Source: a virus
Virus record (IMG/VR): IMGVR_UViG_3300030419_007825
Span: 1 to 52,139 of that record
Reading direction: 5' to 3' (one strand)
DNA length: 52,139 nt
In this document: one piece after another, positions 5,115-24,300 of the stretch
How positions within the stretch are numbered: the first letter of the stretch is position 1
Layout of the letters: every line of letters begins with the position of its first letter
The notes under the pieces: model-generated
The model's input: only the letters and a program-made list of their open reading frames with translations
What the model was told of the DNA's origin: nothing
The model's database searches: none
Made by a program: the position numbers and the translations under genes

Positions 5115-5976
5115 AATAGGCTTGGCATCCGATCATAATGGCGTCGCACTAAAAAAGGAAATGGCGGAGTTTCTGCGTAAATTAGAAGATGTGTGTATTG
5201 TAGATTTGGGCCCCTTTGAAGAGGGTAAAAAAGTAGACTATGTTGATTATGCCAATCAATTGGCACAAATTTTATCTAATGGAGATGTTGATAAAGGCAT
5301 CTTAATATGTGGTACGGGCGTTGGCATGAGTATTGCTGCCAATCGGTTTGAGAAAGTCCGGGCTGCTCTTGTTCATAACATCCTCACCGCTCCAAAGTGC
5401 CGGGAACACAATGATGCCAATGTACTGTGCTTGGGAGCGTGGGTGGCAACGGCAGAGGAAAACTTTAAGATACTTGAGTCTTGGTTGGAGACGGATTTCG
5501 GCCATGGCCGACACGTCAAAAGGGTGGAGAAATTATCTACTTCCAAGCAAAAGATTGTTTTTACAAATGGTGTTTTTGATATTCTTCATGCTGGTCACAT
5601 CAATTTGCTAAATTTTGCTAAGTCCTTAGGGGATAAGCTGATTGTGGGCATCAATTCCGATGCAAGCGTTCGGTCAATTAAAGGGGAGAATCGCCCAGTG
5701 AATAAGGAGACTGATCGCAAGGCACTGCTGGAGGCCCTCGCTCCGGTGGATGAGGTGATAATTTTTGATGACGAAAAGGCCCACACTTTAGTACTCGAAG
5801 TCAGTCCATCTGTGCTCGTGAAGGGAGGGGAGTGGACAGCCGACGAGGTCCGCGCTCGCGATGGAATACCCCCAGAGGTGGAGATTAAAATTTACCCGAT
5901 TGTGGGGGACTATTCTACAACTGCTATTATTAAGAAAATTCATGAAAAAGATGATTGGAAAAAGCAAGGATCCTAA
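5107..5976 (+). CDS. Fusion: RpiB-type sugar-phosphate isomerase + HldE C-domain (RfaE2) nucleotidyltransferase
   Basis: Two complete enzyme domains share one 289-residue chain. Residues 1-143 are RpiB/LacAB-like: ASDHNG at 7-12, the catalytic-type Cys68 in ICGTGVGMSI, REHNDAN at 99-105 and the arginine-rich GRHVKRV at 134-140. Residues 149-280 match the nucleotidyltransferase that makes ADP-heptose (HldE C-domain, RfaE2): HAGH at 161-164, NSDASV at 183-188, VKGGEW at 238-243 and a STTAIIKKI tail. Bacterial ADP-heptose synthesis uses the SIS-family isomerase GmhA, not RpiB. The fusion suggests that here the RpiB domain makes the aldose phosphate that is later activated by the C-domain; this is inference. 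It overlaps the sugar-kinase gene. Confidence 0.9.
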   Translation: MVRIGLASDHNGVALKKEMAEFLRKLEDVCIVDLGPFEEGKKVDYVDYANQLAQILSNGDVDKGILICGTGVGMSIAANRFEKVRAALVHNILTAPKCREHNDANVLCLGAWVATAEENFKILESWLETDFGHGRHVKRVEKLSTSKQKIVFTNGVFDILHAGHINLLNFAKSLGDKLIVGINSDASVRSIKGENRPVNKETDRKALLEALAPVDEVIIFDDEKAHTLVLEVSPSVLVKGGEWTADEVRARDGIPPEVEIKIYPIVGDYSTTAIIKKIHEKDDWKKQGS

Positions 5977-6877
5977 AAGGGTTTTGGTGTTGGGAGATTC
6001 CATTTTAGACCATGATATTGTCTGCAATGCAATGGGTCTTTCTTTGGAGACGCCGACTTTAAAAGCCCGTCTTCATTCGGAGAGTTACAAATTCGGTGGC
6101 GCCGCCAACGTTGTTAATAATTTATTAGCTCTCGGATCTTTTGTAACTTACGTTACTCCTGTGGCTGCCGATAAATATGAGTCAAAGTACCATAAGTGGG
6201 AGCATCCTCGATTAGATCTGATCCCCCTTAGTTACCAGGGACAAAACATAGTAAAGTCTCGATATTGGATCAAGCGCGGTGAACACTCTTATAAGCACCT
6301 TCAAATTAACCAAGGAACCTTATTTGTCGACGTGGAAAAAGCGCTAAAGACGATTAGCGATATTGTAGTCGAGGGGATATATGATGCAATCATTTTAGTG
6401 GACTATCGAGGCGGCCTATTTTCCAGGAATGAAGTCAGTCGTAAGTTGGTAGAGGCGATATCATCTACTCATTCATGTGTTTATGCCGCATCGCAAGTGT
6501 CGGATAGGGAGAGTCAATACTCACTTTTTGAAGGGGTAGATGTTATTTGTTTGAATGAACAAGAAGCGCGCTCAGAGCTTGAAGATTTTAGTCCAATCCC
6601 CGAGGATATTTTGCGTCTTTCTCGGCATTTGGATACCAGAGTTTGTGTTACATTGGGATCGCATGGAAGCACTCTACATACTCGTATCGACACTGTTGAA
6701 AGTGCTGATGCCTATAGTGTGGCCGTTAAAGATACTTGCGGCGCCGGCGACAGTTTCCTCGCCGCCCTAGTGGCATCAGACGAGGATTTAGAGTTTAGCA
6801 ATAAGTGGGCCGCAGCATCGACACAACAGATAGGAACAAGTGTCCCTAACTTAGAAGAGGTGTTGGCATGGGAATAA
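5942..6877 (+). CDS. PfkB-family sugar kinase, HldE N-domain (RfaE1)-like
   Basis: About 311 residues, the usual length of the kinase half of HldE. The N-terminus has VLVLGDSILDHD, as in RfaE1, followed by GGAANVVNN, the sugar-binding loop. The C-terminal signature DTCGAGDSFLAAL carries the PfkB catalytic aspartate and the anion hole. In bacteria this enzyme phosphorylates D-glycero-D-manno-heptose-7-phosphate at C1. In E. coli the kinase and nucleotidyltransferase are one protein; here they are separate genes overlapping by about 35 bases. The in-frame ATGs at 5942 and 5951 are both possible; an open frame reaching to 5861 is rejected because it lacks family sequence. A close relative acting on another sugar phosphate cannot be excluded. 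Confidence 0.85.
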   Translation: MKKMIGKSKDPKRVLVLGDSILDHDIVCNAMGLSLETPTLKARLHSESYKFGGAANVVNNLLALGSFVTYVTPVAADKYESKYHKWEHPRLDLIPLSYQGQNIVKSRYWIKRGEHSYKHLQINQGTLFVDVEKALKTISDIVVEGIYDAIILVDYRGGLFSRNEVSRKLVEAISSTHSCVYAASQVSDRESQYSLFEGVDVICLNEQEARSELEDFSPIPEDILRLSRHLDTRVCVTLGSHGSTLHTRIDTVESADAYSVAVKDTCGAGDSFLAALVASDEDLEFSNKWAAASTQQIGTSVPNLEEVLAWE

Positions 6878-7548
6878 AAGACAGGGTTTTAGAGGCCAAT
6901 CAATGGATTGTAGATAAAGGCCTTGTTGAGCTAACATGGGGGAATGTGAGTGCGGTGGCGACCAATGGGGATTCGGTGGTTATTAAGCCATCGGGAGTTC
7001 AATTAGATACCACTACCAGAGATGACATGGCTGCCGTTGATTGGGATGGTAATCATCTTTCGGGACAAAAACCGTCGGTAGATACCCCATCTCATTTGGC
7101 TTTGTATAATAGCTTTCCTGAAATTGCTAGCATTGTTCACACGCATTCTAAGTATGCTACTATATTCGCCCAAGCGGGGCACCCAATTCCGTGCTTGGGG
7201 ACAACACATGCCGATTATTTTTATGGGGATGTTCCCTGTGTGCCCCACCCCCCCGAGAAGGAAGTCGAAAATGACTACGAGGAAAATACTGGCCGAATAA
7301 TAGGTGAATATTTTAGCGAGAATGAGTTAAACTGTTTGTATATTCCGGGATGTGTGGTAAAGGGACATGGAGTTTTTACATGGGGTCAAACGATAGAAGC
7401 CGCCTTGGAAAATGCATATGTGCTAGAGGTGGTAGCAGAAATGGCATATAAAACGTTGATGCTGGACCGCTATAGTTGCTTGGCTGATTTTGTTTTAGAA
7501 AAGCATTTCGGCCGCAAACATGGGGATACTAAATATTATGGCCAGTGA
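6868..7548 (+). CDS. araD: L-ribulose-5-phosphate 4-epimerase (AraD family)
   Basis: The 226-residue protein aligns by eye along its whole length with AraD. It has GNVSA at 25-29, KPSG at 40-43, the zinc-binding HTH at 91-93, the second zinc site in GHG at 167-168, Asp116 in THADYF matching the catalytic aspartate, and the characteristic C-terminal KHGDTKYYGQ. AraD interconverts L-ribulose-5-phosphate and D-xylulose-5-phosphate; the related UlaF and SgbE do the same reaction. The family also contains aldolases, but the YYGQ tail favours the epimerase. A GAGG ribosome binding site lies in the end of the kinase gene, which it overlaps by 10 bases. A run of seven C lies at 7248-7254. Confidence 0.88.
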   Translation: MGIKDRVLEANQWIVDKGLVELTWGNVSAVATNGDSVVIKPSGVQLDTTTRDDMAAVDWDGNHLSGQKPSVDTPSHLALYNSFPEIASIVHTHSKYATIFAQAGHPIPCLGTTHADYFYGDVPCVPHPPEKEVENDYEENTGRIIGEYFSENELNCLYIPGCVVKGHGVFTWGQTIEAALENAYVLEVVAEMAYKTLMLDRYSCLADFVLEKHFGRKHGDTKYYGQ

Positions 7549-7951
7549 AATTAAGTACGGACCGCAAGAGTTGCCTCCTATTGATAGCGTGGTGAAAGAG
7601 GTGCACAAATATTGGGGAGACATGAAGACCCTCTTTGAAAATGATCAATATTCTGTAAAGAGAATATTCATGAAAAAGGGAACCCAAAGTAGTTTAGAAT
7701 ACCATGTTAAAAAAGAGGAATCTTACTACATAGAATCCGGGAAGTTGAAAGTAGGTACTCGCATAGGCCGCGCCCGAAACACCTCTCTCGTGTTAAACCA
7801 AGGTGATGTATTTCATATTCCACTGGGATTTATGCATATGAGGATAGCCCTAGAGGATACGGTCATCATAGAGTTTTCTACTCTGGATGACGATGCTGAT
7901 TCTCACATAGTAGAGGACGGCAAAACTTATGTTCATAAGGAGGAAGAATAA
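7538..7951 (+). CDS. Cupin protein, phosphomannose-isomerase-C-terminal-like
   Basis: The 137-residue protein is a single cupin barrel. Motif 1 is seen as YHVKKEESYYIESG, with a histidine and glutamates as metal ligands, and motif 2 as GDVFHIPLGFMH, with a histidine near the end. The pattern resembles the C-terminal cupin of bifunctional mannose-1-phosphate guanylyltransferase/phosphomannose isomerase (type II). It may be a sugar or sugar-phosphate isomerase or epimerase in the same pathway as its neighbours, but single-domain cupins have many functions. The ATG at 7538 is preferred to 7520, because protein similar to the family begins there; it overlaps araD by 11 bases. Confidence 0.7.
   Translation: MASEIKYGPQELPPIDSVVKEVHKYWGDMKTLFENDQYSVKRIFMKKGTQSSLEYHVKKEESYYIESGKLKVGTRIGRARNTSLVLNQGDVFHIPLGFMHMRIALEDTVIIEFSTLDDDADSHIVEDGKTYVHKEEE
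7937..7943 (+). promoter_or_regulatory. Strong Shine-Dalgarno that fixes the transaldolase start
   Basis: AAGGAGG lies nine bases before the ATG at 7953. It settles the transaldolase start at 7953 rather than at the upstream in-frame codon at 7929, which would add residues not found in the family. It is among the strongest ribosome binding sites in the island and lies inside the end of the cupin gene. Confidence 0.75.
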
Positions 7952-7952
7952 G

Positions 7953-8621
7953 ATGAAGTTATTTATTGATACAGCAAATTTAGATGAGATTAGTACTGCT
8001 CTAGAGTATGGTCTCGCACAGGGGGTAACAACAAATCCCTCTCTGCTGGCTAAAGAGCCGCAAGCAGACTTTTATGCTCATATCCAGAGGATTGCTGATG
8101 TGTGCACCGAGTTAAGCCCGGATATTCCTTTGTCCGTAGAGGTTTTCGCACAAACACCAGATGCAATGATCGACCAGGCCCATCATATCGTGGGAACAAT
8201 TAAATACACTAATTTAAATATCAAAATCCCCGTGGGGTTTGATGAAATGAGGGTGGTAAAAGCCCTCAGCAATGATGGGGTGAGGGTGAACTGTACTTGC
8301 TGTTTTACAGCCACTCAGATGCAGCTCGCCGCAGCCGCTGGCGCTCGTTATGTATCACTTTTTTACAATCGCGCTCTGGACAGCCAGATCGACGCCCTGC
8401 AAACTCTGCGCCGCACTAGAAAATTTATTGATACTAATCTTCTCAATTGTGAGATCATTGCGGGAAGTATTAGAAATGCTTATGACCTTGAGGACTGTTG
8501 GGATGCTGGGTGCGATATTGTAACAGCAGGGATGCCAGCCATACGCAAGTCGGTCGCGCACTTAAAGACAGACGAATCAGTGGAAGGGTTTTTGAAGGAT
8601 TTTGCAGCATGGATCGAATGA
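7953..8621 (+). CDS. talC: Transaldolase (TalC/MipB-type)
   Basis: The 222-residue protein has the short form typical of TalC and fructose-6-phosphate aldolase. It starts MKLFIDTANL with Asp6, has VTTNPSLL at 25-32, Glu63, and NIKIP with Lys91 as the Schiff-base lysine. NCTCCFTATQ at 113-122 and the YVSLFYNR strand complete the barrel. Transaldolase moves a dihydroxyacetone unit between sugar phosphates and can make sedoheptulose-7-phosphate, the precursor of activated heptoses. TalC is a known metabolic gene of cyanophages. Here it sits inside a glycan island, which suggests precursor supply rather than general pentose-phosphate flux; that is inference. Confidence 0.9.
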   Translation: MKLFIDTANLDEISTALEYGLAQGVTTNPSLLAKEPQADFYAHIQRIADVCTELSPDIPLSVEVFAQTPDAMIDQAHHIVGTIKYTNLNIKIPVGFDEMRVVKALSNDGVRVNCTCCFTATQMQLAAAAGARYVSLFYNRALDSQIDALQTLRRTRKFIDTNLLNCEIIAGSIRNAYDLEDCWDAGCDIVTAGMPAIRKSVAHLKTDESVEGFLKDFAAWIE

Positions 8622-8938
8622 CTTACGTAATTGATATTGACGACACCATATGTCGTACCAACGGCAGCGATTACGAAAATTCCCAACCTCTAAATGACCG
8701 GATTGCAGCGATAAATAAGTTGTATGAGGAGGGGCATACCATATTGTTTTTAACCGCTCGTGGAATGTGTCGAAACAACAATGATCAATTAGGCGCGATC
8801 GCTGAATTGTACAATTTTACCCACGATCAACTTGTGGCCTGGGGAGTTAAATTTCATAAATTGTTTTTGGGCAAGCCGGCTGGGGATGTGTACATAGACG
8901 ACAAAGCCTGTAAGGATACGGATTTTTTTGATGTATGA
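8609..8938 (+). CDS. Small HAD-superfamily sugar-phosphate phosphatase, Cj1435-like
   Basis: The protein has about 109 residues and is a minimal HAD fold. Motif I is DIDDT at 9-13 with both catalytic aspartates, motif II is the threonine in FLTARGM, and the C-terminal YIDDKA supplies the magnesium-binding acids after a GKP lysine. The arrangement resembles the small phosphatases of capsule clusters (Cj1435c type). In this context it could remove the C7 phosphate of a heptose bisphosphate, the GmhB step missing elsewhere in the window; this is inference. The ATG at 8609 has AAGGA ten bases upstream; 8618 forms an ATGA overlap with transaldolase and is an alternative. Confidence 0.75.
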   Translation: MDRMTYVIDIDDTICRTNGSDYENSQPLNDRIAAINKLYEEGHTILFLTARGMCRNNNDQLGAIAELYNFTHDQLVAWGVKFHKLFLGKPAGDVYIDDKACKDTDFFDV

Positions 8939-9626: not shown

Positions 9627-10468
9627 AGAAAGTGCTTTTTGCCGGCCCATGGGTGGGAGAGTTTGGTTGGGAACTATTTTGCTGGCATGCCTACGTTAGA
9701 AGCCTTTCAAGGTTTTATGATGAGACTGTGTGTGTTGGCCCACCACATTCCGAGTTCATGTATAGAGATTTTTGTGATAAGTACATAAACTTCACCCCTG
9801 AATATGGTGATTATAGAGACTCGTTTTACAAAGTTGGATTTTCTATTGATGGTCCCCTTATTCGTGGACTAATGAAAAAAGCAGAAATCTCTACAGAAGA
9901 AAATCAGGTTTCGATATTTGCACCTCGGAGAATTGGAGATCCGCCGCGTACACATTACAATGAAAAGTTCCAATTTGGCAATCAACTTATTGCACCTGAG
10001 TATATTAAATTTGGAACACAAAGAGAAGAATACAAAAACACCATTATTTTTCACGCTAGGAATAGGACCTTGCGTCAGGGAGATAACTGGCACGAAGATA
10101 ATTGGAAACCCTTAGCTGAATCTTTGCTTACTAAAGGATACGAGATAGTTTCAATAGGGCTCAAGAGCGAGTCGCTGCATATTGAGAACACAACAGACAA
10201 GAGAGAATGCGATCAACAAGAGTTATTAGATATTTTACATAGTGGTGTTGCGATTTTTGGACCATCATCCGGCGCAATGCATTTAGCAACCCTATGCGGA
10301 TGCTCGCAGATAGTTTGGACAACCGACTATAATTTAGAGAGGTATACAAAAAATTGGAACCCTTTCGAAACGCCTGTGTTATTCTTGTCGAAGCATGGCT
10401 GGCAACCACCTCCCGAATATGTATTTGAGGAATTTGGCAAATGGGGGCGCCACGGAGGAGGTATATAG
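9608..10468 (+). CDS. GT9 (heptosyltransferase)-like glycosyltransferase
   Basis: The protein has about 286 residues. It begins with a Rossmann strand and the loop GEFGWEL and has a C-terminal half with GPSSGAMHLATLCG. The latter matches the 'G-x-D-S-G-x-M-H-L-A-A-A' signature of GT9 heptosyltransferases, with serine in place of aspartate. Between them is IIFHARNR, resembling the start of the donor domain. A transferase of this family suits the activated-heptose genes upstream. The start is unclear: GTG at 9608, GTG at 9617 or TTG at 9623 are all possible and all overlap the previous gene. It could equally use another NDP-sugar. Confidence 0.65.
   Translation: MSRVQLKKVLFAGPWVGEFGWELFCWHAYVRSLSRFYDETVCVGPPHSEFMYRDFCDKYINFTPEYGDYRDSFYKVGFSIDGPLIRGLMKKAEISTEENQVSIFAPRRIGDPPRTHYNEKFQFGNQLIAPEYIKFGTQREEYKNTIIFHARNRTLRQGDNWHEDNWKPLAESLLTKGYEIVSIGLKSESLHIENTTDKRECDQQELLDILHSGVAIFGPSSGAMHLATLCGCSQIVWTTDYNLERYTKNWNPFETPVLFLSKHGWQPPPEYVFEEFGKWGRHGGGI
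10454..10461 (+). promoter_or_regulatory. Shine-Dalgarno that fixes the sulfotransferase start
   Basis: GGAGGAGG lies nine bases before the ATG at 10471. It supports that start over an in-frame ATG at 10441 inside the preceding gene. The site overlaps the end of the GT9-like coding sequence. Confidence 0.7.
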
Positions 10469-10470
10469 GA

Positions 10471-11133
10471 ATGAGTAAGAGTAGCGAAATTGAAAAGCAT
10501 TTTTTGGATGCATTTGCAACCACTAATAAAGAGTTTATTTATATACCAATACCAAAGACGGGCACCAGATCAATCCTTAAACTGATGAATAAGATTTATG
10601 GAAAAGACCTTAAATTTTCTCACCACTCCTATAAATGGGTAGCCAACACGATCTCCCAAGCAGAGTTGGCGCGCGCAAAAGTTTTTGCAACCGTTAGAAA
10701 TCCCTGGGCTAGGATGTATTCTATATTTTCATATTATGGACCTCAGAGTAAGTTCCCTCTTAAGTCAAAAAACTTCAGGGATTTTATAATGACATCTCCC
10801 ATAGAATATGCCAATTGGTATCAGGACGAGGGCTGCTGGGAAGATTTTTATAATCAATCTCGATGGCTCGCAGATGTGTCCGGAGAAATAAAAGTTGATA
10901 AAATATTTAAATTAGAAAATTTAAATAATCGAGATCTTAATGGTTTTTTTGGAGTAAGTGGGCACAAGATTTATCATGTAAATCGGTCTACCTCCAAGAA
11001 GCAACATTACTCTTTATTTTACGATGATGATATGATTGAAGTCGTTTATAAATTGTGCAAAGAGGACATCGACAATTTTAATTATAATTTTGAATACAAA
11101 GAGAACACAGAGAAGAGGGATAAAAATGGATAA
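10471..11133 (+). CDS. PAPS-dependent carbohydrate sulfotransferase
   Basis: The 220-residue protein carries both co-factor motifs of this family. PKTGTRSI at 28-35 is the 5'-phosphosulfate loop with its lysine and threonine. VRNPWARMYSIFSYY at 75-89 is the 3'-phosphate site with Arg76 and Ser84. This is the layout of the carbohydrate sulfotransferase 2 family, which moves sulfate from PAPS to a sugar hydroxyl. The phage would depend on host PAPS. Its place among glycosyltransferases argues for a glycan substrate. This gene and the next are noticeably AT-rich compared with the rest of the island, suggesting separate acquisition. Confidence 0.83.
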   Translation: MSKSSEIEKHFLDAFATTNKEFIYIPIPKTGTRSILKLMNKIYGKDLKFSHHSYKWVANTISQAELARAKVFATVRNPWARMYSIFSYYGPQSKFPLKSKNFRDFIMTSPIEYANWYQDEGCWEDFYNQSRWLADVSGEIKVDKIFKLENLNNRDLNGFFGVSGHKIYHVNRSTSKKQHYSLFYDDDMIEVVYKLCKEDIDNFNYNFEYKENTEKRDKNG

Positions 11134-11755
11134 AAAATTGTTAAAGCTTACGGAAGATGGCTTGAGCTTATGGTATGAAGAAAATTATGATAAAAGTTGG
11201 TTTGTTGAGTGCACGGGTGTGGAATATTTAAAGAATTATTACACAAATCATCGCCCTAGACTGTTTGAGCGCTATCACGGATGGTTTGGTAGCCTAGGCC
11301 TAACAGGACATGGACTAGATCTTGGATTCACCAATGGAAGAGGGATTTACTTCTTTTCTAGGATCTTCCCACACTGCAAAATTACGGCCATTGATTTTAA
11401 TAAAAATACAGAATTAATACACGACCACCTAAAGAATTTAATTCCACAGATTGTAGAACTAAGAACCGAAAATTGTTCTGCTCTTTCCGATCCAGATGAA
11501 AAATATGATTTTTGCACCTCGACAGATTTTTATGAACATGTAGATGAGAGCACATATTTTAAGTCAATAAGAGAAGTTCATAGAGTTTTAAAAAAGCAAG
11601 GAAAATTTTGTGTATATTTAGGAAAAACAATCCTACCGGAGCACATTAATTTGAGACCTGATTGGCAAGTATTCCAAGATATGAAACATAACGGCTTTAA
11701 ATTTATAGATAAAAGAAATGATTTACTAGTTTTTGAAAAAAATGAAACTTCTTAG
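11126..11755 (+). CDS. SAM-dependent methyltransferase (class I)
   Basis: The 209-residue protein has motif I in GLDLGFTNGRG, an acidic strand end in ITAIDFNKN (motif II) and a region CTSTDFYEHVDE followed by 'VHRVLKKQGKFCVYLG', the usual layout of Methyltransf_11-type enzymes. Next to a sulfotransferase and many transferases it most likely makes an O- or N-methyl group on a sugar. The ATG at 11126 overlaps the sulfotransferase stop by 8 bases and has AGAGGGA upstream. A longer open frame back to 11036 lies wholly over the sulfotransferase gene and is rejected. Very AT-rich: by hand count only 12 of 60 bases at 11701-11760 are G or C. Confidence 0.8.
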   Translation: MDKKLLKLTEDGLSLWYEENYDKSWFVECTGVEYLKNYYTNHRPRLFERYHGWFGSLGLTGHGLDLGFTNGRGIYFFSRIFPHCKITAIDFNKNTELIHDHLKNLIPQIVELRTENCSALSDPDEKYDFCTSTDFYEHVDESTYFKSIREVHRVLKKQGKFCVYLGKTILPEHINLRPDWQVFQDMKHNGFKFIDKRNDLLVFEKNETS

Positions 11756-12749
11756 CGTAATTGGCACAAGGCCACAATATATTAAAATAAAGCCATTCTA
11801 TGATTTTTGCAAAAGGCAAAACATAGATCATCAAATTCTGGATACACTTCAGCATTACTCCGATAATGTTTCGAAAGATTTAATTGGTGACCTTGACCTC
11901 AGAATAGATTTTACCTTAAAAACACGAAAAGACAGCGAGCTTTCCTTCATCGCGGGTGCACTAGAAGAAATAGGACAAATTCTTCAAAGAGAAAGTCCCG
12001 ATTATGTTTTGGTTTATGGTGACACGAACTCTACCCTGTGTGCGTCTTTAGCGGCCTATAAATTGAATATTCCCGTTGCTCATGTGGAAGCAGGGCTGCG
12101 ATGTGGAGATATTCGCGTCCCGGAAGAGGTAAACCGGATCTTTGCAGATACAGTAGCGGCGATACAATTGTGTTCTTCCAAAGCTGGAATGAAAAACCTT
12201 CAACGTGGAATATATTGTGGGGATTTAGAGTATGAGATTTTAAACACCATAAACCCTTCAGTTGTACATGGCGATTTTGGAGTAATGACAATTCATCGAC
12301 AGAGTAATACCACGCCAGAGCAATTGCACAAGATTCTAGATTTTTGCTCCCAAATTCCTCACCATATTCGTTTTTATGTACACCACCGTACGTTGCCATT
12401 CTTGCGCTACGTCGACCTTCCTACCAATATAGAGGTGTACGAATCGTGTCCTTATTCGGAGATGGTGAAGAACTTGGCAGAATGTAAATTTATTTTGACA
12501 GACTCGGGTGGGATTCAGAAAACGGCCCCTTTTTTTGGCAAGAAAACTTTGGTGTTTCGGTCTAAAATTGAGTGGACCGAGACCGAAGAGGCCGGGTATG
12601 TCAAAAAAGCGGATTATAGCAAAGAGAGCCTAAATTGGCTCCTATCAGGGAATACACGACGCTCGCCTGCTTTCTATGGGAGCACCACTAACACGACTTC
12701 GGAGATAATCTATAATTCCATCGCCCAAGACCTGGAGGGTCGAGCCTAA
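11742..12749 (+). CDS. UDP-HexNAc(A) 2-epimerase, WecB/WbpI family
   Basis: The 335-residue protein is a non-hydrolysing UDP-N-acetylhexosamine 2-epimerase: VIGTRPQ at 6-12, GDTNST at 93-98, HVEAGLR at 114-120, PEEVNR at 127-132, HR at 185-186 and DSGGIQK at 255-261. Two differences from WecB/MnaA stand out. The segment after DSGGIQ reads KTAPFFGKK, and the later motif is IEWTE instead of the 'TERPE' of MnaA. As I recall, WbpI and WlbD, which epimerise UDP-2,3-diacetamido-2,3-dideoxy-glucuronic acid, have 'TEW' here. The neighbouring WbpE- and WbpB-like genes support the same reading. Start at 11742 is chosen over a TTG at 11733. Confidence 0.85.
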   Translation: MKLLSVIGTRPQYIKIKPFYDFCKRQNIDHQILDTLQHYSDNVSKDLIGDLDLRIDFTLKTRKDSELSFIAGALEEIGQILQRESPDYVLVYGDTNSTLCASLAAYKLNIPVAHVEAGLRCGDIRVPEEVNRIFADTVAAIQLCSSKAGMKNLQRGIYCGDLEYEILNTINPSVVHGDFGVMTIHRQSNTTPEQLHKILDFCSQIPHHIRFYVHHRTLPFLRYVDLPTNIEVYESCPYSEMVKNLAECKFILTDSGGIQKTAPFFGKKTLVFRSKIEWTETEEAGYVKKADYSKESLNWLLSGNTRRSPAFYGSTTNTTSEIIYNSIAQDLEGRA

Positions 12750-13837
12750 TGAGTGTGCCATTATTTGATTTGCGGAGAGTTATTCATCCGCATGCGTCTT
12801 CTTTAAGGAGGGCATTTGAATCCTCTCTCGAAACCTGTCATTTTATCAACGGTCCTGCAGTTACAGACTGGGAGGCCGACTTGGATGACTATTTGGGGGC
12901 TGGTAAGAGTTTGGGCATCTCAAGTGGAACGGATGCATTGTTGGCCATTTTTATGGCCCTAGGACTTGAACCTGGGAGCGAGATATTGGTGACGTCCTTT
13001 ACATTTGTCGCCTCAGCGACGTCTATCGTAAGAGCAGGACTCAAGCCGGTGTTCGTTGATACAGCACCCCAATCTTTCCACCCTGGTCTTGAAGAATACG
13101 CGGCCGCCATGACTACAAATACTAAGGCAGTATTGTTAGTTCATATCTTCGGTGCGCCCAACAATATGGCCGAGATGGTTAACTTTTGCAAAACCAATGA
13201 TCTCCTATTAATTGAAGATTGCGCCCAGTCTTTAGGCGCCGAATGGGAAGGTCAAAAAATAGGTACTTTTGGGGATGCTAGTGCGTTCAGTTTTTTCCCG
13301 GCAAAGAACCTAGGTTGTTTTGGGGACGGCGGCGCCGTATCGACACCCTCGACCAAAATATATGAAACTATTAAAGCAATTAGGTCACATGGTGCAAAAA
13401 CAAAGTACCATACCGAAATGATGGGAGGCAATTTTCGTCTAGACACAATTCAGGCATCAATCTTGAGTGTTCTCTTGCCTGCATTGTCCGGTTGGCTTTC
13501 CCAGAGGGGCGAGAATGCTTTATATTATCTTGAGCACATTAATGAAAGTAAAAGCACACAACTTCCTGAGAATCTCAAAGGGCATTCGTGGAACCAGTTT
13601 ACTCTACGATCGTCCAGGCGCGATGCTCTTAAAATATATTTAGATGAAAATAACATAGGAAATGCAGTATACTATCCTATACCGTTACACAAACAACCTT
13701 TATTTGCCACCACTACTACCCAGTGTCTTCCGAACGTAGAAAAACTGTGTAAAGAGGTTTTATCGCTTCCAATATATCCTGGATTAACGCGAGATGAGCA
13801 AATAGAAGTAGTCGATAAGATTAACTGTTTTAAATAA
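12749..13837 (+). CDS. PLP-dependent sugar aminotransferase (DegT/DnrJ/EryC1, WbpE-like)
   Basis: The 362-residue protein fits the family length. SSGTDALL at 58-65 binds PLP phosphate, EDCAQ at 156-160 holds the PLP-ring aspartate and glutamine, and FFPAKNLGCFGDGG at 182-195 carries the Schiff-base lysine, Lys186. The GxNFRLDxIQAS stretch near 230-240 is also typical. It would transfer an amino group from glutamate to a keto-sugar nucleotide. Next to a WbpB-like dehydrogenase, the likely substrate is UDP-2-acetamido-3-keto-hexuronic acid, the WbpE reaction. The start is supported by GGAGGG and a TAATG overlap with the epimerase gene. Confidence 0.9.
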   Translation: MSVPLFDLRRVIHPHASSLRRAFESSLETCHFINGPAVTDWEADLDDYLGAGKSLGISSGTDALLAIFMALGLEPGSEILVTSFTFVASATSIVRAGLKPVFVDTAPQSFHPGLEEYAAAMTTNTKAVLLVHIFGAPNNMAEMVNFCKTNDLLLIEDCAQSLGAEWEGQKIGTFGDASAFSFFPAKNLGCFGDGGAVSTPSTKIYETIKAIRSHGAKTKYHTEMMGGNFRLDTIQASILSVLLPALSGWLSQRGENALYYLEHINESKSTQLPENLKGHSWNQFTLRSSRRDALKIYLDENNIGNAVYYPIPLHKQPLFATTTTQCLPNVEKLCKEVLSLPIYPGLTRDEQIEVVDKINCFK

Positions 13838-13872
13838 TGTTGGTTGACAAGGACTGAACAGGTGGGAACACA

Positions 13873-14547
13873 ATGATATATATATTAACATACGACTCTT
13901 TTCATAGAAAAACGCAAGATCTCCTTTTGCGCCTTAAGGCTACCGGAGTGTCAGAGGCGCATGTATTAATTACCCCATGGGAAGATAGAAAAAATCACGT
14001 TCCCCTCATTCCTCATAGACCCCCCACAACTTTAGAAGTTGATACTGTCACTCTTTGCGACAGATTATCTTTTAAAAGCACAAAGATTGATTCATTCGAT
14101 GAGATGCCCCCACTGGAAGAAGAAGACTTTATTTTGATTGGGGGCGCCGGTATCCTACCAGAAAAAGTAGTAAAAAGCGGAAAAGTTATCAATTCTCATC
14201 CCGGCTATCTTCCGTACTGCCGCGGCCTGGATTCCTATAAATGGGCTATCTACGAAGGTAAGCCAATTGGGGTTACAACCCATATAGTATCGGAAGGGTG
14301 TGACACTGGTAAATTGATTAAGGCAAAACTGGTGCCGTTATATTCATGGGATACTTTTCATAGTGTAGCTCAAAGACAGTACGAACTAGAAATTGATATG
14401 CTTGTCGAGGCTATAAAAGATATAAAAACCTCTAAGTTGGAGCCCATAGACGAAACTCGGTCTTCGCCCAAAAGAAGAATGAAACACTCCATGGAGGTTC
14501 GTTTGTTGTCTCGATTTCAACAGATAGTAGACAAGTGTGAGATTTAA
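13873..14547 (+). CDS. Sugar N-formyltransferase
   Basis: The 224-residue protein has the catalytic triad of 10-formyl-tetrahydrofolate-dependent formyltransferases: Asn107 and His109 in INSHPGYLPY, and Asp144 in EGCDTGKLI. The fold also includes IGGAGILP before it and GVTTHIV between. It lacks the C-terminal domain of Met-tRNA formyltransferase and is not close to PurN in surroundings, so a nucleotide-sugar amine is the likely acceptor, as for VioF, FdtF and related enzymes. It sits between the aminotransferase and the 3-dehydrogenase, where a WbpD acetyltransferase would be expected. GGTGGGA serves as ribosome binding site; 35 bases separate it from the previous gene. Confidence 0.85.
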   Translation: MIYILTYDSFHRKTQDLLLRLKATGVSEAHVLITPWEDRKNHVPLIPHRPPTTLEVDTVTLCDRLSFKSTKIDSFDEMPPLEEEDFILIGGAGILPEKVVKSGKVINSHPGYLPYCRGLDSYKWAIYEGKPIGVTTHIVSEGCDTGKLIKAKLVPLYSWDTFHSVAQRQYELEIDMLVEAIKDIKTSKLEPIDETRSSPKRRMKHSMEVRLLSRFQQIVDKCEI

Positions 14548-14574
14548 TTAAGTGCCTGAAAAAAGGAAAATAAA

Positions 14575-15516
14575 ATGTTGAGATTTGGACTACTGGGTGC
14601 TGCTGGTTTTGTGGCGCCCCGCCACCTGCAGGCGATAAAAGAAACCAACAATAACTTATTAGCAGCAATAGATCCTCACGACTCAGTGGGGATCCTAGAT
14701 TCTTACTTCCCTCAAGCTGATTTTTTTACCGAGCCGGAAAGATTTGAAAGACACCTAGATCGCCTTAAGGACAAGGGGAAAAAGCTCGATTATTTATCCA
14801 TTTGTTCGCCAAATTATTTACATGATGCCCACATAAGAATGGGGCTTAAGAATGATATTGATGTGGTGTGTGAAAAGCCACTCTTGGTAAACCCTAAAAA
14901 CGTTGAATTGTTAAAAAAACTAGAGAAGGAAACGGGAAGAAAAATAAATTGCATTTTGCAACTTAGACTTCATGACACTATCGTCTCACTGAAAAAAGAT
15001 ATAGATAAAAATAAAATTTATGATATAGATTTAACTTATATAACACGTCGAGGAAAGTGGTACGAATACTCTTGGAAAGGTGATATTCATAAATCTGGAG
15101 GCCTTGCCATGAATATCGGAATTCATTTTTTTGATATGCTCATGTGGATTTTTGGAGAGTGCCTCGAAAGTAAAGTTTTTTATAGAACAGCGGACGCTAT
15201 TAGTGGGCGCTTGGTTCTCGACAGAGCACGAGTTAGATGGACTTTGAGCACTGATTCCACCATGTTACCAAAAAATGTTAAGGCTCCGTATCGGTCAATA
15301 TTAATCGATGGGAAAGAGCTGGAATTTAGTCATGGGTTTACAGATTTACATACAAAAAGCTACAAGCAGGTTATTGAGGGTGAAGGATTTGGCACTGCCG
15401 ACGTGATGGGGTCGCTAGAGGCCACCAGTGAAATAATGTCCTCCCGGATAGAGCCAGTTCTAGATAGGGCTTGGGTCCACCCTCTCTGTCCGGTGCTGGC
15501 CCTCCAGGAGAAGTAA
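14575..15516 (+). CDS. Gfo/Idh/MocA oxidoreductase, WbpB/WlbA-like UDP-HexNAcA 3-dehydrogenase
   Basis: The 313-residue length equals that of WlbA. The N-terminus has the NAD-binding GLLGAAGFVAPRH, EKP at 100-102 carries the family lysine, and LRLHDTI, YITRRGKWYEYSWKGD (155-170) and SGGLAMNIGIHFFDML (174-189) match what I recall of WbpB/WlbA almost word for word. These enzymes oxidise C3 of UDP-2-acetamido-2-deoxy-glucuronic acid, making the substrate of the WbpE/WlbC aminotransferase. A separate UDP-GlcNAc 6-dehydrogenase (WbpA) is not in the window, so the substrate must come from the host or from elsewhere in the phage. AAAGGA precedes the start. Confidence 0.88.
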   Translation: MLRFGLLGAAGFVAPRHLQAIKETNNNLLAAIDPHDSVGILDSYFPQADFFTEPERFERHLDRLKDKGKKLDYLSICSPNYLHDAHIRMGLKNDIDVVCEKPLLVNPKNVELLKKLEKETGRKINCILQLRLHDTIVSLKKDIDKNKIYDIDLTYITRRGKWYEYSWKGDIHKSGGLAMNIGIHFFDMLMWIFGECLESKVFYRTADAISGRLVLDRARVRWTLSTDSTMLPKNVKAPYRSILIDGKELEFSHGFTDLHTKSYKQVIEGEGFGTADVMGSLEATSEIMSSRIEPVLDRAWVHPLCPVLALQEK

Positions 15517-15519
15517 AAG

Positions 15520-16545
15520 ATGAAGGTACTCTATATAACCCCCCAGGGAGTAGGAGGCACATCACCACAGATAGAGATGGCGCAACATCTAAGACCACGG
15601 TTTGAAAGGCTAGACTTGTGTATTATCGGCCTAGACAACTTGTCTGCCTATAGAAAAGATTGGGATGTTGTGTTTGGGGCGATGGAAACGGCATGCCCGG
15701 TCGCTTTACAAGTATCGTCACAGATGAACATTCCAGCATATGGTCATTGGGAGTACATCCCCCCATTTAGGATACATGGGTACCCGGGAGGCTCAGACCC
15801 TTTGTTATGGGGCTATCGAGAAGAGCATCTGGCGGAACATTATCAAAATAAGCGCTTTTATTCCTTGTATAAATCTATAATTGATGCGGCGGCCCAAAGT
15901 ACCATTAGTTCTTGCGCTGGCCATGCCTTTAAGGAAACAGCAAAAACCTTTTCAGGACACGATTTAGATAATTGCTTTATCAAATATCCTGCCAGCCCAA
16001 TGCCTCTAAATAAAGACCGCAATGCGGAAAAAAGAGATTATTTTATTACGGTTTCCCGGCTAGTTCCCAACAAAAGGGTGGCCGATCTGGCTAAGGCTGT
16101 TCGCAAAGCAAACTTAGAAACAACCTGGGTGATAGTGGGCGACGGCCCCGAAAAGGCCGAAATAAACCGAATTATGAAGGACAGCAAAACCAAAGTACAC
16201 TATATGCCCAATACGAACGGAGAGAAAAAGTTTTTCTTTCTTTCCAGAGCTAAGTTCCAACTTTCAGCATGGCATGGTTTGCCCCAATTAGAGGCTGCTC
16301 TGGTGGGAACACCGACTATTAATTTAGATATAGATTATATCCGAGAACTTTATGGCGATAGCCTTACGTGGGCAGCCACCACTGAGGATCTTGTTCACGA
16401 GATGAGAAATTTCGCTGAAAACCCTGTTATGTGTAAACAAAAGGCCGACACGCTTTATGAGGCAGCCATTGGAGACGCATTAAACATAAACACCATAGAT
16501 CAGGCGGCAGATATAATTGAGGATACTTTAAGAAAAATACTATAA
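15520..16545 (+). CDS. GT-B glycosyltransferase (GT4-like)
   Basis: The 341-residue protein starts with a Rossmann strand and a GVGGTSP loop. The donor domain is clear: YFITVSRLVPNKRV has the R-x-x-P-x-K motif, VIVGDGPEKAEI is the following strand and loop, and HGLPQLEAALVGTP is a shortened form of the E-x7-E region, with the first glutamate replaced. Retaining GT-B enzymes that lost this glutamate exist, but activity should not be assumed. AGGAGAAG lies eight bases before the ATG. It directly follows the WbpB-like gene and may transfer the sugar made by that pathway. Confidence 0.82.
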   Translation: MKVLYITPQGVGGTSPQIEMAQHLRPRFERLDLCIIGLDNLSAYRKDWDVVFGAMETACPVALQVSSQMNIPAYGHWEYIPPFRIHGYPGGSDPLLWGYREEHLAEHYQNKRFYSLYKSIIDAAAQSTISSCAGHAFKETAKTFSGHDLDNCFIKYPASPMPLNKDRNAEKRDYFITVSRLVPNKRVADLAKAVRKANLETTWVIVGDGPEKAEINRIMKDSKTKVHYMPNTNGEKKFFFLSRAKFQLSAWHGLPQLEAALVGTPTINLDIDYIRELYGDSLTWAATTEDLVHEMRNFAENPVMCKQKADTLYEAAIGDALNINTIDQAADIIEDTLRKIL

Positions 16546-16628: not shown

Positions 16629-17489
16629 GTGAGGTATATACTTGTCACCGGTGGAGCCGGATTTGTGGGGACGGCACTTATCAGGGAATTGGTTAAAGAT
16701 CCGAGCAACTGTGTTTATTCGTTAGACAATTACTTTACCGGTACAGAAAAAAATCATGTGGAAGGCGCCACCTATATTAGGGGCAACACACAGCATATAC
16801 AGGACTTAATCCACGATGGTAGCAAAATTGATATCGTATACCATTTTGGAGAATACTCCAGAGTTTCCACATCTTTTGAAGATAATGAAACTGTCTGGAG
16901 ATCAAATGTAGCGGGTACCCGAGAGGTATTAGAATTTTGTCGCAGAAACAATTGCAAATTAATTTATTCTGCTTCTAGTACTAAGTTTGGCGATGGCGGC
17001 ACAAATGCGTATGCTTCGCCCTATGCTCTTTCTAAGTCACAAAACACGGAGTTGATAAGATGCTACTCAGAATGGTTTGGCTTGGATTCGGTTATTTGCT
17101 ACTTTTATAACGTATATGGCCCAGGGCAAATCACTGAGGGCAAATATGCCACTGTTATCGGTATATTTGAGAGGCAGTATTTTGCTGACGAGCCACTTAC
17201 AGTTGTATTCCCGGGCACCCAGGAGCGATCTTTTACGCACATAGACGATGTGGTCTCTGCGTTAATAAAGTTACAAAAGGTAAAGGGTGATAATTATTGT
17301 ATCGGGAATACCGAGGCATATCAGATAGTTGAGGTAGCTAAAATGTTTAGTGATAATCTGGTATACTTAGATGAGCGCCCGGGCGAGCGCTACACAACCG
17401 CCATCGATCTTACAAAGATGGCGGAACTAGGGTGGAAGCCTGTACATAATTTGCCCGCATATGTGAAAGACATTTTACAAGGAGAATGA
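16629..17489 (+). CDS. Extended SDR nucleotide-sugar epimerase/dehydratase
   Basis: The 286-residue protein starts at a GTG and opens with VTGGAGFVG, the NAD-binding glycine motif. YHFGEYSRVSTS is the strand before the active site, SASSTKFGDGG holds the catalytic serine or threonine, and YALSK supplies Tyr and Lys. RSFTHIDDVV and RPGER in the C-terminal half are typical of UDP-glucose 4-epimerase and related enzymes. It may change the stereochemistry at C4 or C6 of one of the sugars made here, for example a 4-epimerisation, or act on the NDP-heptose like HldD. Sequence alone does not decide. It closes the carbohydrate island. Confidence 0.82.
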   Translation: MRYILVTGGAGFVGTALIRELVKDPSNCVYSLDNYFTGTEKNHVEGATYIRGNTQHIQDLIHDGSKIDIVYHFGEYSRVSTSFEDNETVWRSNVAGTREVLEFCRRNNCKLIYSASSTKFGDGGTNAYASPYALSKSQNTELIRCYSEWFGLDSVICYFYNVYGPGQITEGKYATVIGIFERQYFADEPLTVVFPGTQERSFTHIDDVVSALIKLQKVKGDNYCIGNTEAYQIVEVAKMFSDNLVYLDERPGERYTTAIDLTKMAELGWKPVHNLPAYVKDILQGE

Positions 17490-17949: not shown

Positions 17950-18302
17950 TGTTACTATATGGCACACTAATATTTTCGCTTTTAATTAACATCCTCTTAG
18001 GTTGGTATGTAACAAGGTTGCTTAAAAAATTTATGTATATTTCTGCGAATATGGCAGATTTGTACCTGATCACCAAAGCCTTTAATGTATTTGTGAGCGA
18101 CCTTTATAGTATGGATTCGTTTCATGGCGAACCCATGATAGAGGAAATGGTGACGCGGATCCGAGAAGTCTCCGAAGAGATGGAGGCTTTTAGAAGCATT
18201 TTTGAATATACATTAGATGAGGAAGTAGACAACGAACTAGAGGAAGCATTAAATGCCGAGGAAGAAGAGCAAAAAAAACCATTATTTTACGCAGGTCCAT
18301 GA
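17946..18302 (+). CDS. Small membrane-anchored acidic protein
   Basis: The 118-residue protein has one hydrophobic N-terminal segment (about residues 4-22) followed by basic residues RLLKKF, which suggests an inner-membrane anchor with the rest in the cytoplasm. The C-terminal third is strongly acidic with runs of glutamate. No known family is recognised. Its ATGATG start overlaps the stop of the zinc-ribbon gene, and its last 50 bases overlap the sigma-factor gene, so the three are likely translated together. It might bring host or phage proteins to the membrane, but nothing in the sequence shows which. Confidence 0.65.
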   Translation: MMLLYGTLIFSLLINILLGWYVTRLLKKFMYISANMADLYLITKAFNVFVSDLYSMDSFHGEPMIEEMVTRIREVSEEMEAFRSIFEYTLDEEVDNELEEALNAEEEEQKKPLFYAGP

Positions 18303-18939
18303 AGACGCAATCGTTAAGTATGCGCTTTCGCAAGACAATGAGCTAAGATCTAAGCTTTACGAAGAATATATACAACCAGCTTTTGACCAGATGGTCGACA
18401 AGATTATTTATACATATCGTTTTACAACGTTGCCCAACATCGACTATTTAAAAGCCGACTGCAAAGTCTGGCTAACCACAATATTAAACAAATATGACCC
18501 CAGCAAAGGCTCTAAGGCCTTTTCATATTTCTCAGTGGTAACCAAAAACTGGTTTATCCACAAAGTGAAGAGGACCAAGAGAAGGCTCCAGACTGAGGTG
18601 TTCATGGAGGATCTCCTAAACGAAGTAGATGAAGACCTTGTATCCGATGAGGAGACTTATTTTGATCGAAGAGTTGAGCTAGAGTTTTGGAAATCTTTGA
18701 ATGGAGAAATTAGTACGTGGGACTCCTTTATGTTGAAGGAGAACGAAAAGAAGGTACTGATGGCGGTCCGCATTCTTTTAGACTCCGCAGATCAAATAGA
18801 AATTTTCAATAAAAAAGCTATTTACTTATATCTCCGGGAGATAACAGGTCTTAACACAAAACAGGTTGTTAATAATTTGAATAAGTTAAGAAAACGATAT
18901 AGGGTATTTAAAATTAAATGGGAAAACGGCGAGATCTAA
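18253..18939 (+). CDS. 55: Late-transcription sigma factor, T4 gp55-like
   Basis: The 228-residue protein has a sigma-70 region-2-like core. The stretch ILNKYDPSKGSKAFSYFSVV (about residues 76-95) followed by TKNWFIHKVKRTKRR is the pattern I know from T4-type gp55, which directs host RNA polymerase to late promoters. The C-terminal half has helices and a basic end. In T4 the protein ends in a sliding-clamp-binding motif; here no clear LDFLFE-like motif is visible at the end. The gene overlaps its upstream neighbour by 50 bases and its downstream neighbour by 22. It presumably switches on the structural genes that follow. Confidence 0.85.
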   Translation: MPRKKSKKNHYFTQVHEDAIVKYALSQDNELRSKLYEEYIQPAFDQMVDKIIYTYRFTTLPNIDYLKADCKVWLTTILNKYDPSKGSKAFSYFSVVTKNWFIHKVKRTKRRLQTEVFMEDLLNEVDEDLVSDEETYFDRRVELEFWKSLNGEISTWDSFMLKENEKKVLMAVRILLDSADQIEIFNKKAIYLYLREITGLNTKQVVNNLNKLRKRYRVFKIKWENGEI

Positions 18940-21329: not shown

Positions 21330-24300
21330 ATGGCAACAATTTCCCAAGCCCCAGCGATGACTGCCTCCAATCCGCAAACGGTGGCACAGAGACTTAAGTG
21401 GCACACACGCCGAATAGAAAAACCTTATGAGACGGGTACTCAAATTTTTATTAATGTTTATTCTTCTGTCATCGAGCGTGGTCGAGAAGCGACTGACTAT
21501 TTTACCGCACTTAACGAGAGTCACGCACGCCGGCTCATCCTAGATTTTTATGGGAAACCTTTGGGTTTTATGGTGCCCGTCACTCCGGCCAATATCTTCT
21601 TTCCCTCTCGGGAACTCTCTAGCCCCATTCTTCAGTTCGCCGTTTCTAAAGAAGTACTGGAGGAGGTGCCTGATGCATCGGGCGATACGGAAGGATATCT
21701 TGTACAGAACCTTATAACCTCTAGACAGATTAATAAATTTACCAAAGATATTAATACCCTCTTCCCGGTATATCAACAACAATTAAAATTTTTCAACGGC
21801 GCTATATTTCCGAGAATCAATTTCCTGGACCTCTCCGACAAGGTCGGGCTCTTCTTTGCGAACCTCCGAGATTTTATAGAATTTAATGGATATACCCAAG
21901 ATCAATATCAGAAAATAGGATTGAAGTTTGATGACAACTATCTGGTTCAAAGCGTAATACTACAGCAGGCTGATAAGGATCGTATTACCAACATTCCGCT
22001 GGTGCGGGGAGTAAAATATTATTTTGAAACCAAAAAGGAAGGACGTAATCCATATGTGAATGAGCTGGTGTCCAACATGGAAAGTGTCCTGTTCGACAGA
22101 CGCCAGAAGCTTAATTGGACACAGTTCTTATATCAATACCTGCCGAATTCTGGCATCGAGGTCAACTTCTTTGGCAAGCCCAGCACCGAAACAGAAGCCA
22201 GTAAAGCTAACAAAAGAGCCGAGGAGGGACCTTGGGGCCCTCTGGCCGCGACTGATGAAGAGGTTGAAGCGATACGTCGGTCTATTGATGATCGACAAGT
22301 CCAGGTAAAGGCTTTTGACGAAGCTAATAAATCAATCCGGGAAATTAATCAAAGTTTACAGAAGCGCCTAGAATCAATCGTCGCCGAGATGGAAAATATT
22401 ACCGGCGAGGTCGACAAGGTGATGGGAATTCTAAATAAATTTAATGTGACCACCTTGATTGAAGCTGCGCTAGAGTGTTTGCTAGTGAAGCAGGGCTTTA
22501 ACGGGGCTCTCCCCGATTTTCTCCCGGGCATTAATCCATTTAAACCAGAACCACCAAGGATAAAATTCCAATTACCAGAGATACCGACTAAGTTACCCAT
22601 CATATCAATTAACAAAGCGCTACAGGTTCAAATCAGGGAGGGTTTGAAGAGAGCCCTGATGGCCTCTTTAATGTCGATCCTGGAGTCGCTGGCGGGCATA
22701 ATAAAAGAATTCTGCCTAGAGACAGGAGATGAAGGCCCATCTCAACCTGCACAAGATGTTGTGGGCGACTTTTTAGATCCTTTAGAAGGGCCCAACCCAC
22801 TTCATCAGTGCTATATGGATTTTGGGTTCATAGTCAGTTCTCCGGATTTATTTGAGGTACCAGCTGGTCTCACGGAATCGTCAGTCCTAGAGGGATATTT
22901 GACGGAGTTTGCGCCTCTTATCACTCCGCGAGAATTATGTGATTTGTTTAATAATATAGCTTCTGCGGATGTCTTGCAGATTGCAAATAATTTAATCGAT
23001 GCTTCCTGGTCACAGCTTCGACAAAACTTTCCAGACGAAGAAGCGATACAGAGCTTTTTCGCATGTATCGGCGATCTAGTAGATCCCACCTATTGTCAGG
23101 ATGTATATAACGGACTTATCCCGCAGCTCCCCGATATTGATCCTTGTACTATTGAAGATATGCAGCCCTATCAGGACATTGTTGATCTATTAGAAAACTT
23201 AGAGGATCTTCTAGAGGCCCCGGATATGGCTTGTGGTGCGGGTATTGTCCCGGCCCTAGCCGACATTGATTCCTACAACAATTCCGTTACGGGCCTTATT
23301 GATACAGTGGTGTCCACTATTCAGCAGATGTTTGTTAATGATTTGGGGAACTTTAAGAGTGCCGCTTTATTGCCGAAGCCCCTCGGCCGCGCGGATCAAA
23401 AAAAGCTGACAGAGTTGGAGAATTTACTACAATTTATTGAGGGCCCCCCGGAACCCGAGATCCCGGAAGGGTCGGATCAGTTCTTTAACAATCTTATTCC
23501 TCAGCGCCTTGTTCAAACCTCAAATGATTTTAAAAATATTCATAATGCTCTCACCAGACAGGCACAACAATCACTAGAAGAGAACATAAAAGATATTTTA
23601 GCCAAGCAAGAGTTTCTTGTGGCTCCTGGAACTCGTGCTCTATATGAGGCTATTGAGGATAATTTTGACACAAGTTTATTGTTTGATGAAGGTGGGGATC
23701 TCGCTTCTTTGGCGTCGCCCCTCCTCGCGGTGACATATTATGCTTTTTCCACCCAGTTGGTGTTGGACATGCCTTTCCTGGCGCGCGGTGGCACACAGGG
23801 GAAAGATATCCTCTACGCAATGCGAGGCTCCTTAGAGGAGGCCTCAGATGCCTTGGCTATCTTGTCCTTACCGTTAATTACCGCGGAGCAAAAAGCTGAG
23901 AAACGCGGCATGTTGGATCTTCAAGATGCTCTGAGTCCTGTTGCTGTGGCCTTTGCTATGAGTTTTCTCAATAATACAGTCACCGATTTTACGGAGAAGC
24001 TCTTCTCCTATATGGAATCTCAACACTCTGAGCCCCTTAATCAACAGTTACTTCAAAATAAATCCCTCATGAAGCTTTATCCTTATTTTAACTTTGGATT
24101 AATAAATTCTATTGCTTATAAGATCTCAAATTCGGATTTATTCAACGCAGATACATTTGCGTCCTTAAATCTATTTCCAAAACTTTGCCAGGACGGCTCA
24201 ATAAGTAATTCGGATTTGCTCGATGTTAATGGTATCAAGCAAAGTGCGCTCCAAGAGTTTGTAGATAATTCGTGCATTGATAGAGAATTCGAGCTGGGCC

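Follow-up and report, generated by a model that had tools for sequence, protein, structure and literature searches.

Which sugar would a phage assemble with an epimerase, an aminotransferase, an N-formyltransferase and a dehydrogenase encoded side by side, and at which step would it depart from the bacterial Wbp route? The question is raised by positions 11742-15516 of the IMG/VR virus record IMGVR_UViG_3300030419_007825, a linear sequence of 52,139 bases that was analysed whole (the window). An earlier note, made from the sequence alone, had read these genes as a WbpB/WbpE/WbpI-like route with a formyltransferase in place of the acetyltransferase. Its four adjacent genes are indeed intact open reading frames (ORFs) with the corresponding family matches, all on the plus strand and nearly contiguous (gaps of -1, 35 and 27 bases):

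11742..12749, plus strand: predicted WbpI-type uridine diphosphate (UDP)-sugar 2-epimerase, 335 amino acids (PF02350, 5.3e-58; ATG at 11742)
12749..13837, plus strand: DegT-family 3-keto-sugar aminotransferase with a putative WbpE-like role (PF01041, 2e-97)
13873..14547, plus strand: sugar N-formyltransferase, 224 amino acids (PF00551, 2.8e-14)
14575..15516, plus strand: WbpB, by family a UDP-N-acetylglucosaminuronic acid (UDP-GlcNAcA) 3-dehydrogenase of the Gfo/Idh/MocA group (PF01408, 4e-17; matches WbpB in the PDB)

The longest ORF of the epimerase begins at a TTG at 11733, upstream of the ATG. We observed the gene identities, the active-site residues, a conserved neighbourhood and an exchange of acyltransferases; the reading that we favour, with a probability of roughly 0.74, is that the four genes encode a WbpA-B-E-D-I-type route in which the 3-amine is formylated instead of acetylated.

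The exchange emerged from comparison with other viral loci. WbpB was found at 66 loci of the viral collection, some of which are copies of one virus. In the marine T4-like contigs near the window, WbpI, DegT and WbpB lie between glycosyltransferase genes and a late sigma gene, and late sigma homologues were found downstream of WbpB in L001-L004, L006, L008 and L010. The gene order in L001 is WbpI-DegT-hexapeptide acyltransferase (WbpD-like)-WbpB-GT4, where GT4 denotes a family 4-type glycosyltransferase, and that in the window is WbpI-DegT-formyltransferase-WbpB-GT4. Other formyltransferase loci are arranged as WbpI-formyltransferase-DegT-WbpB-GT4-NDP-sugar dehydrogenase (L006; NDP, nucleoside diphosphate) or as formyltransferase-WbpI-WbpB (L015 and the L005/L021 contig). 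In L004, the hexapeptide protein is similar to WxcM, QdtC and WlbB. A hexapeptide protein lay within 3.5 kb of WbpB in 34 of the 53 contigs without the formyltransferase family of the window and in none of the seven with it (Fisher p 0.0017; the counts are of distinct but related WbpB contigs, some of them short, and p, uncorrected for relatedness, is indicative only). The formyltransferase of L003, which is of a different, Fmt-like type, was left out of these counts. A second acyltransferase was also looked for in the window, and no PF00132 hexapeptide (WbpD-type) protein was found in the 52-kb record. Together, these comparisons support a one-for-one swap, in which the formyltransferase appears to stand in the WbpD slot of the relatives, and with it the claim that only the acyl-transfer step differs from the Wbp route.

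The enzymes on either side of this step were compared with solved structures. The dehydrogenase matched, over its full length, the WbpB structures 3o9z (Thermus thermophilus) and 3oa2 at 1.5e-93 and 2.2e-92, respectively, and the WlbA-type structure 3q2k at 1.7e-8; the EKP lysine (K101) and the NIGxHFFD histidine (H184) were present in the alignment. On these alignments its family is beyond doubt that of WbpB, the UDP-GlcNAcA 3-dehydrogenase, which narrows the WbpB/WlbA-like assignment made before. The best solved relative of the epimerase was T. thermophilus WbpI (8sxv, 1.7e-38), with Escherichia coli WecB (1f6d) at 7.9e-26, and a profile of four phage epimerases widened the gap (2e-54 versus 1e-36), although with this profile the Methanocaldococcus jannaschii UDP-GlcNAc epimerase (4neq, 2.7e-53) followed close behind WbpI. 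The top 17 Foldseek matches of its AlphaFold2 (AF2) model, which had a predicted local distance difference test score (pLDDT) of 94.8, were all T. thermophilus WbpI entries, and its score on TIGR00236 (wecB) was 177, under the cut-off of 210. In UDP-N-acetylglucosamine (UDP-GlcNAc) epimerases a conserved Arg touches the C3 hydroxyl, and WbpI has Trp307 instead (PMC10622841). The 'IEW' singled out in the earlier note comprises residues 276-278, and W278 aligns with Trp307 of WbpI, the Arg position of WecB-type enzymes. This residue of the C3 pocket was Trp in 15, His in four, Tyr in four and Asn in one of the 24 epimerases from WbpB contigs and Arg in none; it was Arg in all four annotated UDP-GlcNAc 2-epimerases. 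The catalytic residues Asp98, Lys17, Glu120 and His208 of WbpI are kept as D94, K15, E116 and H185, Tyr96 of the C6 pocket is matched by Y92, and Gln12 is present alongside Trp278 and Tyr92. A WecB identity was thus ruled out by the TIGR00236 score, Trp278 and the WbpI fold matches, and the epimerase sides with WbpI, as predicted, by sequence, modelled fold and W278.

The source of UDP-GlcNAcA has to be considered separately. No PF03721 (WbpA-type NDP-sugar dehydrogenase) protein was found in the 52-kb record, so for this fragment WbpA is missing, as had been stated. A WbpA-type gene may lie beyond the fragment, because a compact NDP-sugar dehydrogenase is encoded no more than 5 kb from WbpB in 14 related viral loci (for example, L001 10709-11524, L004 8930-9742 and L006 5235-6080). 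This compact enzyme has about 270 residues, the NAD and central domains of UDP-glucose/GDP-mannose dehydrogenases and a GGKCFPKD cysteine motif, without the C-terminal domain; in several relatives its place is the one occupied in the window by the sugar epimerase/dehydratase protein at 16629-17489. The unseen WbpA could also be explained if the same enzymes, in a GnnA/GnnB-like manner, used UDP-GlcNAc and made first its 3-formamido derivative UDP-GlcNAc3NFo and then the manno epimer UDP-ManNAc3NFo. Such a route would fit the lack of a PF03721 protein and the weak similarity of the dehydrogenase to an archaeal UDP-GlcNAc 3-dehydrogenase family (2.7e-8), but the match to WbpB itself at 1e-93, the WbpI pocket of the epimerase and the NDP-sugar dehydrogenases near WbpB, both in the 14 viral loci and in the bacterial formyltransferase sets L091 and L101, make it unlikely.

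Which amine the formyltransferase acts on is a further question. In this enzyme the Formyl_trans_N match covers residues 85-190, and the triad Asn107/His109/Asp144, reported as intact before, is invariant across 35 homologues. The AF2 model (pLDDT 95.4; predicted template modelling score, pTM, 0.91) matched PseJ, VioF, QdtF, Fmt and glycinamide ribonucleotide (GAR) transformylase with E values of about 1e-9, and the modelled protein is a distant branch with the correct fold. Among viral predicted structures, Foldseek matched giant-virus formyltransferases only. An N-terminal HxKTQ motif is conserved in the family, which was found in genomes of Bacteroidota, Chloroflexota, Fidelibacterota (Marinimicrobia) and others; the closest relatives of the window's protein are those of the phages L005 and L015, followed by Fidelibacterota, a kinship that gives a weak hint of the host group. 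The only aminotransferase available as a partner is the DegT protein, as no second one was found in the 52-kb record. Its pyridoxal phosphate (PLP) lysine is K186, within FFPAKNLG, and its best PDB matches include QdtB (6.5e-71) and WbpE (1.7e-56), with 4-amino enzymes such as ArnB ranking lower; a family profile search gave the same ranking as the single-sequence search. QdtB and WbpE aminate C3. A 4-amino-sugar role for the DegT protein was therefore ruled out, its nearest relatives being C3-amino enzymes, and the assignment of a DegT aminotransferase to the cluster stands. Because the sole DegT protein of the record is nearest to the C3-amino enzymes, no 4-amino sugar for the formyltransferase to use is visible within the record, and the refuting case named in the earlier note, a 4-amino-sugar enzyme unlinked to the other steps, was not borne out.

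It could nevertheless serve another amino sugar, for example a 4-amino sugar of the host, with the product of WbpB, WbpE and WbpI remaining a free 3-amine or being acylated by a host WbpD. The family has other bacterial contexts, and among solved enzymes a formyltransferase of deoxythymidine diphosphate (dTDP)-4-amino-4,6-dideoxyglucose is the nearest to it in sequence. We regard this explanation as slightly less probable still than the use of UDP-GlcNAc, since the gene sits between DegT and WbpB, exactly where L001 has its WbpD-like gene, its only visible partner is the one DegT protein, formyltransferase and hexapeptide acyltransferase do not co-occur, and members linked to WbpB or WlbA are spread over several branches of the family's tree. 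Because of this spread, the pairing with WbpB or WlbA seems to have arisen on more than one occasion. A genome scan with the family returned 53 loci. In Bacterium D16-36 from the gut (L091), a WbpI-like epimerase, an NDP-sugar dehydrogenase, WlbA, the formyltransferase and DegT are encoded in a row; the epimerase has the diagnostic Trp, WlbA matches 3q2k at 1.9e-75, and the five-gene set is complete but for a hexapeptide acyltransferase (WbpD), which it lacks. In the Chloroflexota loci L101-L103, WbpB is followed by the formyltransferase; a DegT gene comes next in L101 and lies at the truncated end of L103, and L101 also has an NDP-sugar dehydrogenase upstream. The formyl variant is therefore shared by phages and bacteria and is not exclusive to phages.

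Several observations count against a 3-formylated Wbp route. The DegT protein is nearer to QdtB than to WbpE; the formyltransferase is only distantly like solved enzymes (template modelling, TM, score of about 0.6), its family by itself does not reveal which amine is formylated, and most of its bacterial members do not adjoin WbpB. The Trp278 position is Tyr in two other formyltransferase loci (L015 and L021), and Ile16, at the position of Ala18 in T. thermophilus WbpI, is neither Ala nor Leu/Met. Finally, Glu290 of WbpI bridges the ribose hydroxyls and is strictly conserved in the 2-epimerases compared (PMC10622841), and the window has Thr261 (12522-12524) in place of this ribose-binding Glu of WbpI and WecB. 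Its equivalent was found in nine phage epimerases of the clade (the window and eight relatives), some of them accompanied by an acetyltransferase-type protein. Because acetyl-type relatives have it too, the change from Glu to Thr reads in the alignment as a trait of the phage clade, independent of the formyl variant. The epimerase is thus, by sequence and model, of WbpI type and predicted to work like WbpI, yet it is no strict WbpI, because the conserved Glu290 is replaced by T261.

It is very improbable that these genes come from a cell, or form a degenerate set on a wrongly binned contig, and do not work in a phage: the record is a metagenomic fragment, but its four ORFs are intact with their catalytic residues kept, the position of the locus is conserved across independent viral contigs, and the same 52,139-base record encodes T4-type baseplate wedge components as well as a late sigma factor, which identify it as phage DNA. 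The structural genes are closest to those of Microcystis phage Mel-JY01 and Flavobacterium phage immuto (about 30% identity), and because the genomes of these phages are 160-190 kb, the 52-kb record is a part, perhaps one third, of a phage genome. Among 50,697 annotated phage records, no DNA relative of the record was found by megablast and no WbpB by tblastn.

The route that we propose would start from UDP-GlcNAcA, taken from the host or made by a phage dehydrogenase encoded beyond the fragment. WbpB would oxidise its C3 to give a 3-keto sugar, the DegT enzyme would aminate C3, and the formyltransferase would move a formyl group, presumably from 10-formyl-tetrahydrofolate, onto the 3-amine to give a 3-formamide. 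The WbpI-type epimerase would then invert C2 to the manno epimer, with UDP-2-acetamido-3-formamido-2,3-dideoxy-D-mannuronic acid as the predicted product, which the adjacent GT4 enzyme would probably attach to a glycan of the virion or of the infected-cell surface. We infer the substrates, the order of the last two steps, the configuration of the sugar and its destination. With somewhat less assurance, we lean towards the broader view that phages of this marine T4-like group make their own UDP-2-acetamido-3-formamido-2,3-dideoxy-mannuronic acid and exchange formyl for acetyl at C3 to give the virion or the infected cell a variable chemical tag. The route is not unique to this phage: many viral contigs have it, usually with an acetyltransferase-type protein. 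Neither a 3-formamido-2,3-dideoxy-hexuronic acid nor phages with such genes were found in an open-access literature search, a weak absence because the library covered lacks most carbohydrate-chemistry journals. We know of no 3-formamido-2,3-dideoxy-hexuronic acid. No claim is made here for 7s43 and 8e75 as enzymes of 2,3-diamino uronic acids; the Psychrobacter paper describes a 2,4-diamino 6-deoxy sugar (PMC8040287).

The genes around the cluster include the following:

11123..11755, plus strand: methyltransferase, possible tailoring enzyme (PF08241)
15520..16545, plus strand: GT4-type glycosyltransferase that may use the sugar (PF00534, 7.5e-10)
16629..17489, plus strand: short-chain NAD-dependent sugar epimerase/dehydratase family protein (PF01370, 2.2e-38)
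18253..18939, plus strand: late sigma transcription factor, a landmark of the locus (phrog_234, 1.1e-6)

The GT4 gene adjoins WbpB also in L001 (57% identity) and L006 (61%), and because it is conserved in both an acetyl-type (L001) and a formyl-type (L006) cluster, its product is the strongest candidate for the enzyme that uses the sugar. The methyltransferase gene, which overlaps the start of the epimerase gene by 14 bases and whose product may tailor the sugar, has a homologue in the L001 cluster (9974-10594) that is 83% identical, whereas the other cluster genes are 48-62% identical; this difference suggests recent exchange or strong constraint. In the same glycan island, 10441-11133 has a weak sulfotransferase-family match (PF03567, 1.7e-5). 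A second sugar-activation module at 5107-8938 comprises an RpiB isomerase fused to an HldE-type adenylyltransferase, a PfkB/HldE-like kinase, an AraD-type epimerase, a cupin, a fructose-6-phosphate aldolase-like protein and a capsule-phosphatase-like haloacid dehalogenase (HAD) protein, and suggests a phage-made ADP- or CDP-activated pentose or heptose; homologues of the kinase and of the RpiB fusion adjoin WbpB in L033. The structural genes include two very large ORFs, 21330-27446 (2038 residues), for which no PHROG match was found, and 31251-40352 (3033 residues).

If the proposed route is correct, an N-formylated diamino-hexuronic acid route would be added to nucleotide-sugar chemistry, in phages and in bacteria, and a role would be suggested for the HxKTQ formyltransferase family. 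A single phage locus that carries either a formyl- or an acetyl-type acyltransferase would also constitute a natural experiment, in which it could be tested whether such phages vary the acyl group of a surface sugar, with receptors, rival phages or host enzymes as possible triggers.

The comparison with known systems supports the cluster, as far as its sequences tell, as a new version of the WbpA-B-E-D-I route to UDP-2,3-diacetamido-2,3-dideoxy-mannuronic acid (UDP-ManNAc3NAcA), known from Pseudomonas aeruginosa and from T. thermophilus enzymes. In both, the genes for WbpB, a 3-aminotransferase and a WbpI-type epimerase are neighbours with equivalent predicted roles, whereas the window has an N-formyltransferase for WbpD, no WbpA in the fragment and an epimerase without the ribose-binding Glu, and is phage-encoded. 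With the WlbA-type route of Bordetella it shares the chemical logic but not the dehydrogenase type (1.5e-93 to WbpB versus 1.7e-8 to 3q2k); the formyl version on a WlbA-type dehydrogenase is L091. The sugar N-formyltransferases QdtF, FdtF, VioF, WlaRD and PseJ have the same Formyl_trans_N fold, Asn/His/Asp triad and neighbouring sugar aminotransferase, but the known enzymes use dTDP- or UDP-6-deoxy amino sugars, whereas the family of the window has the HxKTQ motif and an expected UDP-hexuronic acid substrate. Closest in setting are the marine T4-like loci L001, L002, L004, L008, L014 and L017, which have the same island, with late sigma, DegT and WbpB in most, and differ in their WbpD-like hexapeptide acyltransferase, in the compact NDP-sugar dehydrogenase of several and, in L002, L014 and L017, in that no epimerase was seen within 5 kb.

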